Shown here: piece after piece, positions 23,084 to 41,603 of the stretch
Position numbering within the stretch: the stretch's first letter is position 1
How the letters are laid out: every line of letters starts with the position of its first letter
Source: Candidatus Pacearchaeota archaeon CG_4_10_14_0_2_um_filter_35_33
GTDB lineage: Archaea; Nanobdellota; Nanobdellia; Pacearchaeales; GW2011-AR1
Assembly: GCA_002792635.1 (NCBI GenBank)
Contig: PFOR01000016.1
Coordinates: 1-42,255, forward strand
DNA length: 42,255 nucleotides
Direction of reading: 5' to 3'
The notes under the pieces: generated by a model
Told to the model about the DNA's origin: nothing
Seen by the model: the letters and a program-made list of their open reading frames with translations, nothing else
Database searches by the model: none
Position numbers and translations under genes: made by a program

Positions 23084-23674
23084 TTAGGCTGTTCTAAGCG
23101 ATTTATTCTGGGCTTGAACATAATTATCGGAAACGAACCATCTGTGATTGCTTGGAAGAATATCTGGACCAAACTCTACCGAGGTTTCTCGGTTTCTTCT
23201 TCTCGATTCTTCTTTTCTTTTCCTTTTCTCTACATTGGATTTCATATAATTAAGTCCTCTTTGACAGAACTTCTGAGTTTGAGAGTCAAGACTGCCAAAA
23301 AAGTCCGATGAAATGACTCCTTGATAACCTTTCAATGCTTTGTTTGAACATTTAAAATCTATATAGTGAAATCCCGGGTCCATAATAGCTAAATTGTGTG
23401 CTGCACTTGCCGCATAATCATAGCATGCTGGCTCATCTACTCTCGCAAATATGTCCCTGGTTAAAGGGTATGCTCTTGCAGCAATAATTAAATGGTATGC
23501 TCTTGCAGCAATAATTTTTTGCCACAAGGCCTCTTCAAAATCTTTGGTTTGTTTGGCTTCTCTTCCAGCCATGTCGTGCTCTCTTGCTTCGTCAAAATCC
23601 ATTACTGGAAATTCATATGAGAGCAGAGAAAGAATATTTTCTGGCGTGATTTCTGCTGGAATATTAAGGCGCAT
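23084..23674 (-). CDS. Hypothetical protein containing a 9-aa tandem duplication
   Basis: ORF 196 aa; IIAARAYHLIIAARAYPL from a 27-bp DNA repeat. Confidence 0.55.
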   Translation of the reverse strand: MRLNIPAEITPENILSLLSYEFPVMDFDEAREHDMAGREAKQTKDFEEALWQKIIAARAYHLIIAARAYPLTRDIFARVDEPACYDYAASAAHNLAIMDPGFHYIDFKCSNKALKGYQGVISSDFFGSLDSQTQKFCQRGLNYMKSNVEKRKRKEESRRRNRETSVEFGPDILPSNHRWFVSDNYVQAQNKSLRTA

Positions 23675-28408: not shown

Positions 28409-28731
28409 GGACAGGTGTTTGTTTTTTGGATTATTTGAGAAGTTTACCGACGATAAATGCTGTTTAAACAAGTGTTTAAATTTTTTTAATTTGATTAGAA
28501 GTTTTTGCATTATTTTTTGCTGTTTATTGGGTGTTTGTTTTTTATTTTTTTCAAAAAAGTGCTTGTTTTTTATTGTTTGGACAGGTGTTTGTTTGGTAAA
28601 AGGGGTGTTTAAGGATGTTTGTTTTGAAAAAAATAAGATAAACAGGTGTCATTTATGCTATAAAATATATTTGCCATTAGGGGCTTTGAAAAGGATATAT
28701 TTATATACTAGAGCTGTTTTAAACAGGCATG
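28409..28731 (+). promoter_or_regulatory. Upstream cluster of ACAGGTGT motifs and TATA-like tract before gene 28729
   Basis: ACAGGTGT at 28411, 28581, 28642; relatives AAACAAGTGTTT (28467) and AAACAGGCATG overlapping the start codon; TATATTTATATACTA around 28697. Confidence 0.5.
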
Positions 28732-29361
28732 TTTTTTGGACTGTTTGGTAATAAAAGGGTGAAAAAGCTTGAAGATGAAACTAAAAAAAGTTTTCAGGCT
28801 GTAAAAGGTGATTTTGATAGGGTCGGAGTGTGGATTAAACACCTTGATGAGCAAGATAAACAGGTGTTTGATATTCTTGGACAGCTAAAAAGTGATATTT
28901 CGACGATAAAGGATGAACTTGAGGGGCTTAGGGATGCTGTTGAGATTATTGGATCAAGCAAGAAAATTAAACAGGTGTCCAAAAATGAGGCTGTTTATAT
29001 CAAACAACTGGGTGTTGATAGTGTCCAAAAACCTGTTCAAACAGCTGTTCAAACAGGCAATTTTCATCAAATATTGAATGGGTTGAGTTCTAATGAGAGG
29101 CTATTAGTGTTTACTTTAATGAATAGTGAGCTGAAGTTAAGTTATGAGGATTTAGCAAGATTGTTAGGAAAAGAGAGATCTACAATTAGGGGCCAAATAA
29201 ATAGCATAAAACAGAAAAGTGAGGGTCTTATTAGAGAGATTCGGGAGCCAAATGGGAAAAAGAGGGTGTTTGTAGAGGAAGAAATCAAGGAAAAACTGGT
29301 AAAATATGCAAAAGTGAGAGTTGGCAAAGGAAAGAAATTGGGAAAAAAGAAGAAAAAATAG
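28729..29361 (+). CDS. Coiled-coil plus wHTH DNA-binding protein (gene A)
   Basis: Coiled-coil N-term; LSSNERLLVFTLMNSELKLSYEDLARLLGKERSTIRGQINSIKQK; basic tail. Confidence 0.7.
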   Translation: MFFGLFGNKRVKKLEDETKKSFQAVKGDFDRVGVWIKHLDEQDKQVFDILGQLKSDISTIKDELEGLRDAVEIIGSSKKIKQVSKNEAVYIKQLGVDSVQKPVQTAVQTGNFHQILNGLSSNERLLVFTLMNSELKLSYEDLARLLGKERSTIRGQINSIKQKSEGLIREIREPNGKKRVFVEEEIKEKLVKYAKVRVGKGKKLGKKKKK

Positions 29362-29508
29362 AGAAAAAAAGAGTAAAAGTGAGGGGAATTGGAAAAAGAT
29401 GAACAAAAAAGGAGAAATGAGGGGAAAAAGATCCATGGTTCAGGTAAAAGTGAGAGGGAATCGGAGCTAAGGATCAATTCTCTTGAGGGTGATTTGTAGT
29501 GCCTAAGA

Positions 29509-29603: not shown

Positions 29604-30311
29604 TTAGATATCTCTTAGTTTTTGGATTGTTTCTAAAGACGCGAGTTCCTTAAGATTTTTTGATATTTTTAGGATAATCTTTTTGTTGTTTTCTTTTGTT
29701 TTCTCGACGGGAACTCCTTTCTTTATTATCTTACCTATGTGGTCTCTGATGGATGATTCTGTTATTTGGAGATATTGGGATAGGAGCTGGTAATCGACGA
29801 CAAGGCCTTGTTCTTCTAATTGGTATAATATTGCGAAAACTTTCATTTCTGTGCTCGTTAATGCTTGAAATTTAATACGAACTTCTTCCTTTATTTCATT
29901 AATTGTTTCTATAACTTTTGATGCTTGATTTAGCCTGTTGTCTGTCTGTCGATGTGTCTGTCTGTCTGTCGAAACCCCCTTATTTCTAGTGGAAATAACT
30001 GAATTTGAGCTTTTTACAGCTTCTAGAGGGTAATTAACTGTCGATGTGTCTGTCGATGTGTCGACAGGAAACGAAGGGGTGTCTATATTCGCCTGTCGAT
30101 GTGTCTGTCTGTCTAAGGTTCGTTTAAGCAAATTAAAGCTGACGTTATGTTCCTTTATATTTGCTTTAATTTCTTGTAATTCTTGATTCTGTTTCTCTAT
30201 TAAAGATTTAAGACCTGCTAGTTCAGTTTCTAGGTATTGGTAATTATAATATAAATTGTAAATGTCTTCCTTAGCTTTGTCGAAGGCTTGTCTTATCTTT
30301 TCTGGATTCAT
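29604..30311 (-). CDS. Coiled-coil plus wHTH DNA-binding protein (gene B), carries an internal motif array
   Basis: LTSTEMKVFAILYQLEEQGLVVDYQLLSQYLQITESSIRDHIGKIIKKG; internal DRQTHRQ / DTSTDTST repeats. Confidence 0.7.
   Translation of the reverse strand: MNPEKIRQAFDKAKEDIYNLYYNYQYLETELAGLKSLIEKQNQELQEIKANIKEHNVSFNLLKRTLDRQTHRQANIDTPSFPVDTSTDTSTVNYPLEAVKSSNSVISTRNKGVSTDRQTHRQTDNRLNQASKVIETINEIKEEVRIKFQALTSTEMKVFAILYQLEEQGLVVDYQLLSQYLQITESSIRDHIGKIIKKGVPVEKTKENNKKIILKISKNLKELASLETIQKLRDI
29937..30118. repeat. Intragenic array: four exact copies of CTGTCGATGTGT
   Basis: Copies at 29946-29957, 30038-30049, 30050-30061, 30093-30104, extended by CTGTCTGTC tracts; GTCGAC palindrome near 30062. 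Confidence 0.9.
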
Positions 30312-34988: not shown

Positions 34989-35149
34989 GTTGTGAGTAAA
35001 GAGGCTTTGTATTTAAATATTATGATAATGAAAAGAATTGATTTAGGGCATTTGTTGGATAGTTAAAATAAATTTAAGGACCCTGACCCTTTGATTTCTT
35101 ATGGAAAATATGAAAGGGTTTAAATACTGGAGGTAAACAGGTTTTTTTA

Positions 35150-35296
35150 ATTTTCTTTTTTAAAGTTTATTATATTATATTATATATATTATATTAATTA
35201 TTAATTAATATATGTATTAAAACAAGAACGTTCGTTTAATTTTGTTATTTATATTTTTTAATGAAATGGTTTCCAGTGGAAATAATGGTGTAGGGT
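35150..35296. promoter_or_regulatory. Candidate replication origin: AT-rich tract plus ORB-like palindrome
   Basis: TTATATTATATTATATATATTATATTAATTATTAATTAATATATG tract; TTTCCAGTGGAAA at 35270-35282 followed by TAATGGTGTAGGG; directly upstream of orc1/cdc6. Confidence 0.6.
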
Positions 35297-35413: not shown

Positions 35414-36622
35414 ATGGCACAGAAATTAGATAAAATATTTGATTCTTTTGTTGAAAATAATTTGTTTAAGGATAAGAGGGTTTTACAAACTAATTATACC
35501 CCCGATACTATTCCTCATAGGGATAATCAGATAGAAAATGTGGCTTCTATTCTTGCGCCCGCCCTTAGGGGAGACAGGGTGAGTAATTTGTTTATTTATG
35601 GGAAGACGGGGACTGGCAAGACATTAAGTGTTCAACATGTTACTAATGAATTAATGAAAAGGGTTAGCGATAGCAAAAGTGATAATCTAAAGGTGGTTTA
35701 TATTAATTGTAAGTTAAAAAAGATTGCAGATACAGAATATAGGATTCTTGCAGAAATAATAAATAGTTTAGGCGGCAGCGTTCCTATCACAGGCCTCCCT
35801 ACTGATGCAGTTTATAATAAGTTTGTGGATATGATTGATGATAAGAGGCAAAATGTTATTTTAATTTTGGATGAGGTTGATCAAGCGATTAAGAAAATAA
35901 GCGATAGCTTTCTTTATACATTAACAAGATTAAATAGTGACTTGAAGAATGCACAAATTGGAATAGTTGGCATTAGCAATAGTCTAACGTTTATGGATTG
36001 TTTAGACCCAAGGGTGAGGAGCAGTTTAGGCGAAGAAGAGTTGGTTTTTCCTCCTTATAATGCATTACAATTAATTGATATATTGAGAGAGCGATCTAAG
36101 ACTGCGTTTGTTGATGGTGTTTTAGGTGAGGAAGTTATTTCTAAGTGTGCTGCATATGCGGCCAGAGAACATGGAGATGCAAGAAGGGCTTTGGACTTAT
36201 TGAGGGTTGCAGGGGAACTGGCCGAGAGGACACAAAGCAAAAAAATAGAAGAAAAGCATATTGATGAGGCGAATAGTAAAATAGAAAAGGATAAAATGTT
36301 AGACATTATTGAAAATGAGCCAAGGCAGTTCCAGTTAGTTTTAATGGCTATAATGGATTTGACTGAAGATAAGAATTTTGATAAGATTTATACCGGAAAT
36401 ATTTATAATAAATATCAGGAAATTTGTGAAAAAACTAAGAATGAGATTTTAACACAGAGAAGGATTAGTGATATTATTGCTGAGTTTGACATGTTAGGCA
36501 TTATTAATGCAGACGTTGTGAGTAAAGGAAGGCAGGGCAGGACAAGAGTGATTAAGCTTATGTTATCTGAAAGTTTAAAGAAAAAAGCAAGAGAGATTTT
36601 ACTAGGCAATTTAAATATATGA
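35414..36622 (+). CDS. cdc6: Origin recognition protein Orc1/Cdc6
   Basis: LFIYGKTGTGKTLSVQHV, LILDEVDQ, GISNSLTFMDCLDPRVRSSL. Confidence 0.95.
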   Translation: MAQKLDKIFDSFVENNLFKDKRVLQTNYTPDTIPHRDNQIENVASILAPALRGDRVSNLFIYGKTGTGKTLSVQHVTNELMKRVSDSKSDNLKVVYINCKLKKIADTEYRILAEIINSLGGSVPITGLPTDAVYNKFVDMIDDKRQNVILILDEVDQAIKKISDSFLYTLTRLNSDLKNAQIGIVGISNSLTFMDCLDPRVRSSLGEEELVFPPYNALQLIDILRERSKTAFVDGVLGEEVISKCAAYAAREHGDARRALDLLRVAGELAERTQSKKIEEKHIDEANSKIEKDKMLDIIENEPRQFQLVLMAIMDLTEDKNFDKIYTGNIYNKYQEICEKTKNEILTQRRISDIIAEFDMLGIINADVVSKGRQGRTRVIKLMLSESLKKKAREILLGNLNI

Positions 36623-36628
36623 TGTTAA

Positions 36629-38179
36629 ATGAAGGATGAAATACTTAGTTTGGTTAGGGAGAAGGGTCTTTTATTAGAGAAAGCTTTGTTTGAAGTTTTA
36701 GATAGTTTTGACAGCCTTCAGGATGCTCGTGATTTTTTAGAGGGTTTGGAAAAAGCTTCTGGGAATAAGGTAATTACAGTTTCTAACCTATCTAAAAATT
36801 TTGAATATGTAAAAGAAGTAGTTAATCATTTACCCGGACAGGAGAGAGAAGTCGTGGAGAGATTTCTTGTTAAAGGAGGATTAAATTTAGAGATTACTAA
36901 AGAGAGAGAAGTCGTGGAGACGAAACCGACAAGGAAACTTGACTATAAGGTATTTTATGCTGATGGGAATAATGCTCGGAAGATAGAAGTGAGGGATTTT
37001 GTTTCCCATTTTAGAGTAAGATATCAAGCCTTACAAAGGATTTTAATGGCCCGGCCAGAGGTTCAACAGAATTTGATTTCACTAAATAAATTGGGAGTGA
37101 ATAGAGAAAGCTTTGTTTTTATTGGAATAGTCGCGGAGAAAAGAATTACAAAAAATAAAAATTTAATCATAAAGTTTGAGGACTTGACAGGTGAAATAAA
37201 TGCACTTGTTAAACCAGATAGTGATTGTTTTAAAGAGGTTAATGAATTGCAGATGGATGATGTGGTTGCTGTAAAAGCTTCTGGGAATAAGGAATTAGCA
37301 TTCATTTATAATATTTTTTGGCCTGAATCTATTTTGTTGGATAAAACTAGGTTTGATGAAGAGGTATGCGTTGCATTTTTGTCAGATATTCATGCAGGAA
37401 GTAAGAATCACCTTGGTAAGGAATTTCAGAAATTTATAAATTGGTTGAACGAGGATGAATTGGCTAAGAAAATAAAATATATGTTTCTTGTCGGGGATAA
37501 TATTGATGGCGTCGGTATTTTTCCAGGTCAAGAAAGACTTCTCGAAAGGACTAGTGCTAAGGAGCAGTATGAAATGCTTTCAGAATATTTAAAACAAGTT
37601 CCAAAAAACATAACTATGTTTATGTGTCCGGGACAACACGACGCGGTTAGGGTTCCTGAACCCCAACCAGTTATTGGAAGAGATTATGGGGAGGCTTTGT
37701 ATGATATTGATAATTTGGTTTTGGTTTCCAATCCTGCGATGGTTAAGTTGATGGAAAAGGATAAGGAGTTCAAGGTTTTGATGTACCATGGTGCGAGCAT
37801 TCATGTGTTCATTAATGAAATTGAAGAATTAAGATTGATGAAAGCTCATAAATGTCCGGCCAAGGCTATCAAACATATGTTAAAGAGAAGACATTTAGCG
37901 CCTATGCATGGGGTGGCTCATTCTATTGTTTATGTACCTCATTTGGAAAAAGACCCCTTGGTAATAGAGGAGGTTCCAGATGTTTTATGTATGGGAGAGG
38001 TGCACAGGTTGGATATCGATAGCTATAATGGTGTTAGGATAATTACTGGGAGTTGCTGGCAATCTCAGACAGAATATGAAGAAAAAATAGGGAATGTCCC
38101 AGAAGCATGCAAGGTCTCTATTTTAAATTTAAAGACAGGAGAAATAAAAATTTTAGACTTTAGCGAAGATGAAAACTAA
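36629..38179 (+). CDS. polB: DNA polymerase D small subunit DP1
   Basis: FLSDIHAGS, LVGDNIDGVG, PGQHDAVR, YHGASIH, calcineurin-like DP1 motifs. Confidence 0.93.
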   Translation: MKDEILSLVREKGLLLEKALFEVLDSFDSLQDARDFLEGLEKASGNKVITVSNLSKNFEYVKEVVNHLPGQEREVVERFLVKGGLNLEITKEREVVETKPTRKLDYKVFYADGNNARKIEVRDFVSHFRVRYQALQRILMARPEVQQNLISLNKLGVNRESFVFIGIVAEKRITKNKNLIIKFEDLTGEINALVKPDSDCFKEVNELQMDDVVAVKASGNKELAFIYNIFWPESILLDKTRFDEEVCVAFLSDIHAGSKNHLGKEFQKFINWLNEDELAKKIKYMFLVGDNIDGVGIFPGQERLLERTSAKEQYEMLSEYLKQVPKNITMFMCPGQHDAVRVPEPQPVIGRDYGEALYDIDNLVLVSNPAMVKLMEKDKEFKVLMYHGASIHVFINEIEELRLMKAHKCPAKAIKHMLKRRHLAPMHGVAHSIVYVPHLEKDPLVIEEVPDVLCMGEVHRLDIDSYNGVRIITGSCWQSQTEYEEKIGNVPEACKVSILNLKTGEIKILDFSEDEN

Positions 38180-41100
38180 TTCCCATTTTGCACGTATAAA
38201 AAAGAAAGTTGATGAATATTATAATGTAGCAGAATCTGCACGTAGCAAGGGTTTGGATCCTGTTTCAAAAGTAGAGGTTCCTATCGCAAGCTCCTTGGCG
38301 GAAAAGGCCGTTGGGTTGATATCTGTTATGTATCCCCAATTACAGGATAAAAAGATTGTAAATCGGATATTGGAGCTGGAAAAAAAATATGGTCAATTAA
38401 GTATTTCTGTTTCAATGTTAATTGCCGAGGATATAGCAAAAGAAAAGTATTGTAAATTTAAAGATAAGATTGAGGCAATCGATGCAGGGGTAAGAGTTGG
38501 TTTTTCATATACTACTCTAGGTGTTGTTTCAAGCCCATTAGAGGGATTTACAGGTCTAAAATTAGGTAAGACAAGAGACGGGAGAGATTATTTCAAGGCT
38601 TATTTTTCTGGCCCTATTAGAAGCGCAGGAACCACCGCAGGGTGTGTTGTTTTGATGATTATCGATTATTTAAGAGAAATATTTGGTTATGCTAAATATG
38701 ATCCAAGTGAGGAAGAGGTTAAGAGATATATTACGGAAAATTATGATTATCATGAGAGAGTCACGAATTTACAGTATTTGCCTACGGAAGAAGAGATAAC
38801 TTTCCTTGCAAGGAGGCTCCCTATTCAAATTTCTGGTGAGCCTACTGAACAAAGAGAGGTTTCAAATTACAAGGATTTGGATAGAATTGAAACTAATTTT
38901 ATTAGGGGGGGAATGTGTTTGATTTTTTCTGAAGGTTTAGCACAGAAAGCTGCCAAAGGGTGGCGTTTGTTGAAGGGGGCAAAGGAGAAAGGCTTGCAAT
39001 CTTCGGGATGGAATTGGTTAGATGAATATATTGAATTACATTCTAAGAGGGAAAAGAAGGGGGATGATAGCAGTCCTACTTATATCAAAGATCTTGTTGC
39101 AGGAAGGCCCGTGTTTGGACATCCAGGTTCTTCAGGAAGTTTTAGGTTTAGATATGGAAGAGGAAGAACTTCTGGATTTTCTGCCACTTCGGTTCATCCA
39201 GCAACTATGGCTATTACAGACGGGTTCATTTCTTTTGGAACACAGTTAAAGATAGAAAAACCAACTAAGGGGTGTGCAGTTTCGTCTTGCGAAGGCATAG
39301 ATGGGCCAATTGTTAAATTGAGTGATGGAAGTGTTAGAAAACTCAAGGATTTTGATGAGGCTAAGAAAGTTTATTCTGATGTAGATGAAATAATTTATCT
39401 TGGGGATTTGTTGATGCCTTTTGGTGATGTTGCTAATAGAAACTATGATTTACTTAAATCAGGATATGTTGAGGAATGGTGGGCATTGGAAATGGAAAAA
39501 GCTGGAAAAAAAATAGATGATGAAAAGAATGTTAGTTTTGAAGACGCCTTAAATTATTCTGATAAATTTAACGTGCCCTTACATCCAAATTATATTTTTT
39601 ATTGGACCCAGATAACCTTGAAGGACTTTTATGGGTTGATTGATTGGATTGCTAGAGGTGTTGTCAAAGGAGATGATTTAATCTTACCATTTTCTTCAAA
39701 AAATATGGAACGCTTTGAAAAGGGGAAGAGAACTTTGGAGCTGATAGGTTGCGAGCATAGTATAGGAGTGGAAAATGTTATTGTTAAGGGAAGTGAGGCA
39801 AAATCGCTTTTAACAAATCTAGGATTGGAATTCAAGGAAGGAGATTTGGAAAAAAATGTTGATGAAATTATAAAGAAGATGGATAAAGAAAAAGGCGTTT
39901 TAGAAAATATTAATCTTTTTTCAAGATTTAAAATTAAAGATAAGGCTGGGTCTTTTATCGGGGCAAGAATGGGCAGACCTGAAAAGGCAAAATTAAGAAA
40001 ATTAACGGGAAGTCCACATGTATTGTTTCCCGTTGGTGTTGAAGGAGGGAGATTAAGAAGTGTTCAAGCTGCTTATGAGGTTGGGAGGGTTAAGGCAGAG
40101 TTTCCTAATTATTTTTGTAAAAAGTGTGAAGAAGAAAGCGTTTACCCCAAATGTGTGAAATGTGGCGAGAGTTGCAAGAAAATGCATTATTGTTTTGTTT
40201 GTGGAAGGAGTTCAGATGACAAATGTAAACAGCATGAAAGAGACTCGCAGTATAGGGAGAGGAGAATAGATATTAGACACTATTTTGATGTGGCTAAGAA
40301 GTCTACAGGAGTCCGGTTAGATGATCTGCCCGTCGCGGTTAAAGGCGTTAGGGGGACAAGCTCAGAAGAGCACGATTGTGAAAATCTTGCAAAAGGCTTG
40401 TTGAGGGCCAAATATGACTTGCATGTGAATAAGGATGGCACCATAAGATATGATGTTACTGAAATGCCTATAACTCACTTTAAGTCCGTGGAAATTGGTA
40501 CAAGTATAGAAAAACTAAAGGAGTTAGGATATACTGAAGATGTGAATGGGGCTGAATTGGTTTCTGGAGATCAGACAGTTGAATTATTCCCTCACGATAT
40601 TATTTTACCTTCTTGTCCTGTTACACAAGATGAAAGGGCTGATGATGTGTTTGTGAATGTGGCTAAATTTGTTGATGATGAATTAGAAAAAATTTACAGG
40701 TTACCCAGATTTTTCAATGTTGAAACAAGAGATGATTTAATCGGCACTTTATTTGCTTGCATCGCACCACATATCTGTACCGCAACAGTTGGAAGACTGA
40801 TTGGATTTTCTAAAACCCAAAGTTTGCTCGCAAGTCCCTACATGCATGCAGCCATGAGAAGGGATTGTGATGGAGATGAAGCAGCAGTTATCTTATTGAT
40901 GGATACTCTTGTTAATTTCTCCAGGAAATTTTTGCCCGCCCATAGAGGTGGTACACAGGATGCTCCGCTTGTTTTAAACTTTAAAATTAATGCAGGAGAG
41001 GTTGATGACCAGATACTGGATTTTGATTGTGGCAGTTATCCTTTAGAATTATACGAGTTTTCAGAACAAGGAAAACATTCTTCAGAGGTTAAGATTGAAA

Positions 41101-41603
41101 TGATAAGTGACAGGTTGAGAGATGGAAAAGACCCTTATACAGGAATAGGCTTTACTCATAAAACAGACAATTTTAATAATGGGTGTTTGAATTCATCTTA
41201 TAAGTTTTTACCCACAATGGAAGACAAAGTGAGCAAGATGATGGCGCTTTGTGAAAAAATTAGAGCTGTGGATACAACAGATGTTGCCCGATTGGTTATA
41301 GAAAGGCACTTTATTAGGGATACAAAAGGCAATTTTAGAAAATTTTCAATGCAATCTTTTAGGTGCGTAGGTTGTAATAGCAAGTTCAGGAGACCTCCCT
41401 TAACGGGAAGATGTACTAATTGTGGAGGAAAGATAATATTTACTATTTCCGAGGGCAGTATCATCAAGTATTTAGAAAAGGCCTTGAGATTGGCCAGGGA
41501 TTACCATGTAAGCGAATACCTATTAGAATGTCTTGAGCTGACAAAGAAGGATATCGAGAGCATGTTTGGAAAGGAGAAAGAGAAACAGACTACTTTGTTT
41601 TAA
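38169..41603 (+). CDS. polC: DNA polymerase D large subunit DP2
   Basis: 1144 aa; ARMGRPEKAK, HAAMRRDCDGDEAAVILLMDTLVNFS; Zn-binding Cys clusters; no intein seen. Confidence 0.95.
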   Translation: MKTNSHFARIKKKVDEYYNVAESARSKGLDPVSKVEVPIASSLAEKAVGLISVMYPQLQDKKIVNRILELEKKYGQLSISVSMLIAEDIAKEKYCKFKDKIEAIDAGVRVGFSYTTLGVVSSPLEGFTGLKLGKTRDGRDYFKAYFSGPIRSAGTTAGCVVLMIIDYLREIFGYAKYDPSEEEVKRYITENYDYHERVTNLQYLPTEEEITFLARRLPIQISGEPTEQREVSNYKDLDRIETNFIRGGMCLIFSEGLAQKAAKGWRLLKGAKEKGLQSSGWNWLDEYIELHSKREKKGDDSSPTYIKDLVAGRPVFGHPGSSGSFRFRYGRGRTSGFSATSVHPATMAITDGFISFGTQLKIEKPTKGCAVSSCEGIDGPIVKLSDGSVRKLKDFDEAKKVYSDVDEIIYLGDLLMPFGDVANRNYDLLKSGYVEEWWALEMEKAGKKIDDEKNVSFEDALNYSDKFNVPLHPNYIFYWTQITLKDFYGLIDWIARGVVKGDDLILPFSSKNMERFEKGKRTLELIGCEHSIGVENVIVKGSEAKSLLTNLGLEFKEGDLEKNVDEIIKKMDKEKGVLENINLFSRFKIKDKAGSFIGARMGRPEKAKLRKLTGSPHVLFPVGVEGGRLRSVQAAYEVGRVKAEFPNYFCKKCEEESVYPKCVKCGESCKKMHYCFVCGRSSDDKCKQHERDSQYRERRIDIRHYFDVAKKSTGVRLDDLPVAVKGVRGTSSEEHDCENLAKGLLRAKYDLHVNKDGTIRYDVTEMPITHFKSVEIGTSIEKLKELGYTEDVNGAELVSGDQTVELFPHDIILPSCPVTQDERADDVFVNVAKFVDDELEKIYRLPRFFNVETRDDLIGTLFACIAPHICTATVGRLIGFSKTQSLLASPYMHAAMRRDCDGDEAAVILLMDTLVNFSRKFLPAHRGGTQDAPLVLNFKINAGEVDDQILDFDCGSYPLELYEFSEQGKHSSEVKIEMISDRLRDGKDPYTGIGFTHKTDNFNNGCLNSSYKFLPTMEDKVSKMMALCEKIRAVDTTDVARLVIERHFIRDTKGNFRKFSMQSFRCVGCNSKFRRPPLTGRCTNCGGKIIFTISEGSIIKYLEKALRLARDYHVSEYLLECLELTKKDIESMFGKEKEKQTTLF

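Follow-up and report, generated by a model that had tools for sequence, protein, structure and literature searches.

Archaeal origin recognition boxes (ORBs) are usually described in intergenic DNA beside cdc6. Elsewhere, parS within Bacillus subtilis spo0J places the binding site of an origin-linked protein inside a gene near the origin, and Escherichia coli datA titrates the initiator. The common archaeal ORB has been published as TCCA[CG]T[TG]GAAA[TC][GA]AAGGGGT (Ori-Finder 2, PMC4164010), and at Haloarcula hispanica oriC2 a downstream cluster of ORBs has been proposed to exert negative control of the origin (PMC4010727). In Sulfolobus, WhiP at oriC3 and UBP with its ucm motif are additional origin-linked DNA-binding proteins that have dedicated origin motifs (PMC4010727, PMC12141716). 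The closest match in layout is gene O of lambda, where the repeated binding sites of ori-lambda lie in the codons of a flexible interdomain linker of a DNA-binding replication protein (PMC6022878).

Here we describe an archaeal locus that combines elements of these systems, found in a 42,255-nucleotide stretch of DNA that was analyzed as a whole (referred to here as the window). Its central gene, gene B, resembles lambda O in having repeated sites within the flexible-linker codons of the presumed binder. The likeness is one of layout: unlike lambda O, gene B resides on a cellular archaeal chromosome, its core is an ORB for Orc1/Cdc6, and no AT-rich element adjoins it, with a separate oriC located 5 kb away. 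As at archaeal oriC1, the box within gene B conforms to the published ORB and the genes for Cdc6 and polymerase D are nearby; unlike at oriC1, the best-conserved ORB is inside another gene and has a tetranucleotide array attached. The gene B ORB also parallels H. hispanica oriC2 as an extra ORB outside the core origin, whereas the Haloarcula cluster is downstream of its origin and has not been reported within a winged-helix gene carrying its own array. Gene B is likewise a candidate for an extra origin-linked DNA-binding protein of the kind represented by WhiP (to which we liken it by description) and UBP, but the WhiP sites and ucm are outside the coding sequence of the protein concerned. In contrast to parS/spo0J and datA, gene B has no homology to ParB or DnaA, and no partner ATPase is encoded at the locus. 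By analogy, we propose that the gene B site may unite the lambda O arrangement with a control site of the datA or distal-ORB kind. A survey of the literature, covering few subscription journals and no bioRxiv preprints, gave no description of such an arrangement in cellular archaea or of the replication origin of DPANN archaea of this group.

Gene B (29604..30311, minus strand) encodes a protein of 235 amino acids with an N-terminal coiled coil, a disordered linker (residues 68-123), and a C-terminal winged helix. An AlphaFold model (AF2; pLDDT of 72.6, falling below 50 across the linker) agrees with the coiled coil and C-terminal winged helix that a sequence-only reading of this DNA had assigned. 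The Pfam match to HTH_11 (4e-5) is slightly under the cutoff, a sequence search of the PDB gave no match, and the solved structures nearest in fold are winged helices of the MarR type, which is a generic resemblance. Orthologues were retrieved from 71 of 96 related genomes, nearly all of them from the order of the source genome, an order of very small, Pacearchaeota-related archaea. A plasmid or viral origin of gene B was considered and rejected, as no plasmid or viral homologue was found; an iteron Rep plasmid replicon likewise finds no match, the protein giving no hit to a Rep-family Pfam model.

The linker codons (29943..30110, minus strand) coincide with an array of DNA repeats, to which the sequence-only reading had drawn attention. 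Its description proved accurate: on the plus strand, CTGTCGATGTGT occurs exactly at 29946..29957, 30038..30049, 30050..30061, and 30093..30104, with copies lengthened by CTGTC tracts (29935-29970 and 30038-30062 by TRF). The start positions modulo 3 are 0, 2, 2, and 0, giving the two reading frames that had been claimed, and gene B on the minus strand reads the copies as DRQTHRQ twice and DTSTDTST once. On that strand the repeat unit is TCGACACAT or TCGACAGACA. Allowing two mismatches, CTGTCGATGTGT has 8 matches in the window against 0.81 expected from shuffles, whose maximum was 4. The exact cluster is unique in the genome (776,861 bases searched), in which sites with at most one mismatch are otherwise found only at C12:28238 and C18:61624. 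The third copy, together with 30062-30067, forms a perfect inverted repeat, CTGTCGA-TGTG-TCGACAG (30050-30067). Neither this inverted repeat nor the two ORB-like boxes, nor the oriC and cdc6 some 5 kb away, had figured in the sequence-only reading. Outside gene B, an ORF spanning 23084-23674 contains a tandem repeat with a 27-bp period (23461-23516; 2.1 copies, 96% match).

The 8-mers of orthologous coding sequences were compared with those of codon shuffles that preserve the peptide. This comparison yielded a frame-locked stretch, TTTCC(ATA/ACT/ACA)GGAAAYRARGGGGTT, that fits the published ORB. With up to four mismatches allowed, the published ORB was matched in all 70 gene B coding sequences (6 perfectly and 14 with one mismatch), compared to 1 of 350 shuffled coding sequences. 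In whole genomes of the order, a strict ORB pattern gave 67 matches, of which 55 are in gene B, 10 are upstream of cdc6, and 2 are elsewhere; the reversed pattern, used as a control, gave none in 96 genomes. In the window, the box conserved in all 70 orthologues (ORB 1, TTCCACTAGAAATAAGGGGGT) is located at 29974..29994 on the minus strand, and the array TTTCGACAGACAGACAGACACATCGACAGACAG (29935..29972, minus strand) touches its G-run end. A second box (ORB 2, TCGACAGGAAACGAAGGGGT; 30061..30080, plus strand) has the opposite orientation and two mismatches to the published ORB. Both boxes fall inside the array. ORB 2 is restricted to the genus of the source genome, where it was seen in that genome and its sister. 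Only in this genus does gene B contain two inverted boxes; the majority of orthologues have one. The DNA between the two boxes is 62% A+T. In nearly all of the 70 orthologues, the ORB is followed by a GACA-type array.

Inside the box, codons are chosen almost without exception. Among 68 aligned genes, the box uses GGA at 63 of 63 positions (41% elsewhere in the same genes), GTT at 64 of 66 (42%), CCA at 46 of 46 (26%), and TCG at 15 of 17 (5%). The codons GGG (68/68, compared to 15% elsewhere) and TCC (68/68) are equally uniform, although the TCC count and part of the GGG count are not independent evidence, since both were conditioned by the search pattern; two genes that the pattern missed likewise have TCC at that codon. 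The reading frame of the box can also change while the DNA motif is kept. In one distant orthologue (L076), the box is in frame 2 and encodes VPQERMGS rather than the STGNEGVP of the others; another gene (L046) contains an identical 20-mer twice, in two frames; and the second box of the source genome is on the strand opposite to that of gene B. The genome that encodes L076 (G092) is recorded as 100% complete and gave no match to Cdc6_C, yet it retains gene B and, in its altered frame, an ORB. Because most orthologues conserve the peptide as well as the box, part of the ORB conservation could be peptide driven, but the codon choice and the frame change argue otherwise.

The array is likewise read in several frames. 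Among the orthologues, GACAGACA occurs in all three frames (93, 71, and 76 copies), and these 240 copies compare with 46 in peptide-preserving codon shuffles; in 62 of 69 genes, the array 3' of the box uses at least two frames. For the GACA array, a reversed-pattern control is an unfair comparison, because the pattern is nearly identical to its own reverse. In most genomes the head of the repeat is CCAACA, TCGACA, CCAGCA, TCGGCA, or CAGACA, and in a distant orthologue (L078 of genome G078) the ORB is kept while a CAAT tetranucleotide array replaces GACA. Motif density is 12.6 per kb in the coding sequence, compared to 0.09 upstream of the operon formed by P0003 and gene B and 0.12 in the genome background, and no array motifs were found downstream of gene B. 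In dozens of genera the arrays are present at gene B, and they do not occur at other places. On the two sides of the box, 5' and 3', the variants are concordant in 54 of 63 genes, compared to 22 by permutation. This agreement could reflect a single binder or repeat homogenization, and uniformity within a gene could also stem from repeat slippage or conversion; a tree-based test of concerted switching gave just two supported independent pairs, too few to decide. By eye, the recognition helix of gene B (ESSIRDY) is almost unchanged in most aligned proteins while the array variant varies, and there is thus no sign of binder-site coevolution. Taken with the near-absolute codon choice and the frame change of the box, the cross-frame repetition in orthologues strongly supports the earlier proposal that selection acts on the DNA and not on the peptide alone. 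Two outcomes that the sequence-only reading had named as counting against it were not seen: orthologues retain the DNA motif, which is not a common one across the genome.

Gene B is linked to a conventional origin. The oriC of the window is intergenic, about 5 kb from the gene B ORB, and consists of two inverted ORBs (35087..35106, minus strand, and 35271..35290, plus strand) around an AT-rich core (35107..35270, 85% A+T) that is a candidate unwinding element. It is followed on the plus strand by orc1/cdc6 (35414..36622; Pfam Cdc6_lid, 1e-26; Cdc6_C, 3e-25) and by the DP1 and DP2 subunits of DNA polymerase D (36629..41603). ORB-like boxes upstream of cdc6 occur in both orientations, in untranslated DNA. 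Gene B and cdc6 share a contig in 43 of the 47 genomes compared, and in 42 of these 43 contigs gene B is 5' of cdc6 on the opposite strand, at a median distance of 6.7 kb (range, 3 to 16 kb). The sole exception to this divergent placement 5' of cdc6 is G010:C5. Skew analysis was contradictory: by each measure (GC and gene-strand-corrected GC3), an extremum at the locus was seen in one of three one-contig genomes, and the genome differed between the measures.

Two further genes accompany gene B. Directly upstream is P0003 (30336..30608, minus strand), a 90-amino-acid winged-helix-like ORF that has no Pfam match above the cutoff and is a conserved partner of gene B in 67 of 96 genomes. Gene A (28729..29361, plus strand), present in 71 of 96 genomes, is a convergent coiled-coil/winged-helix gene with DNA-level motifs of its own. 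Palindromic CTGTTCAAACAG and AAACAGGTGT repeats are found upstream of and within its coding sequence (28500-29361), including an array of two copies of CTGTTCAAACAG in its linker codons (29033..29056, plus strand), and the gene A array is unique in the genome. Other repeats were observed at this gene: the palindrome TATCGWCGATA is present in the coding sequence of 18 of 68 gene A orthologues, AAAGTGAG is strongly overrepresented among the orthologues, and AAAAGTGAG repeats occur at the end of gene A and shortly past it (29301-29457).

As judged by comparison of sequences, the gene B ORB and its species-specific array, set in linker codons, are under DNA-level constraint across an archaeal order, and the same bases appear to have two roles, encoding protein and forming a replication-related control site. 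A replication-related function is the most likely. Of the functions that the sequence-only reading had put forward, replication control is favored because the conserved center is an ORB and gene B is tied in position to cdc6/oriC. We do not favor simple autoregulation at a promoter, since array motifs are no denser 5' of the operon than in the background. Our main reading, to which we assign a probability of roughly 55%, is that of an accessory Orc1/Cdc6-binding control site near oriC, dual coding within an oriC-linked winged-helix gene. Orc1/Cdc6 would very probably bind the in-gene ORB. The winged helix of gene B, as a coiled-coil dimer, would probably bind the abutting TCGACA/GACA array beside Orc1, and binding of the protein within its own gene, as had been suggested, is plausible. 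On slightly favorable odds, the resulting complex would recruit, bridge, or titrate Orc1/Cdc6 and in this way, as an accessory element, control or aid initiation at oriC. As the array region is not rich in A+T, we regard the site as accessory and not as the origin at which the DNA melts, and we do not call it a complete origin given the 62% A+T between the boxes and the single box in most orthologues. Since a conventional oriC already lies beside cdc6, the gene B box may be dispensable for initiation.

Other functions would also place selection on the DNA. If the locus were a centromere-like segregation site, the gene A and gene B proteins would load on their own arrays and move or organize the DNA around the origin, while the ORB would couple segregation with replication. 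Such a site would suit two convergent coiled-coil/winged-helix genes that each have an origin-proximal array unique in the genome, and the source genome does encode SMC and ParA-like ATPases. We nevertheless consider it unlikely, as no ParA/SegA-like gene was found at the locus (AAA_31 matches are on other contigs, with none among the window neighbors tested) and the best-conserved box is of the Orc1/Cdc6 rather than the ParB type. More improbable is a gene-regulatory element through which Orc1/Cdc6 or the gene B protein, bound to the coding sequence, would repress or time gene B expression. The site is indeed within the gene of a winged-helix protein, and the gene A motifs are found both upstream of the start and inside that gene; however, a position about 200 to 370 nucleotides into gene B would be unusual for an operator, array motifs upstream of the P0003-gene B operon are as sparse as in the background, and strict ORBs outside gene B are mostly at oriC.

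Two explanations dispense with a DNA-binding site, and we give both little credence. The dyad UUUCC-NNN-GGAAA could, judging from its sequence, make a 5-bp hairpin, and the box has the coding orientation in nearly all orthologues, as would suit an RNA-level signal in which dyad and array act in the gene B mRNA. This is very improbable given that the source genome and its sister have a second box on the noncoding strand, that similar boxes occur in both orientations in the untranslated DNA upstream of cdc6, and that the matched motif is curated as a DNA site for Orc1/Cdc6. Alternatively, the linker may be a low-complexity product of repeat slippage with no function at the DNA level. The GACA and CAAT tracts do resemble microsatellites, and slippage gives identical DNA read in several frames, but it scarcely fits an ORB that is no repeat, has near-absolute codon choice, and occurs in another frame in a distant orthologue, nor does it fit arrays confined to gene B in dozens of genera.

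The accessory control site may itself be part of something larger. We would tentatively extend the reading, on odds somewhat below even, to a replication-control center in coding DNA, in which the Orc1/Cdc6 box and array of gene B and the array of gene A, each array read by its own coiled-coil/winged-helix protein, would together with oriC define a new class of origin-linked regulators. If the reading of gene B is true, these archaea would have a second site for Orc1/Cdc6 in addition to the origin next to cdc6, and three uncharacterized winged-helix genes would be tied to the locus. Gene B would also be a clear cellular case of dual coding, with a protein linker and a DNA site selected together across dozens of genera. 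The locus thereby raises the question of whether Orc1/Cdc6 acts at sites within genes, and with which partner.
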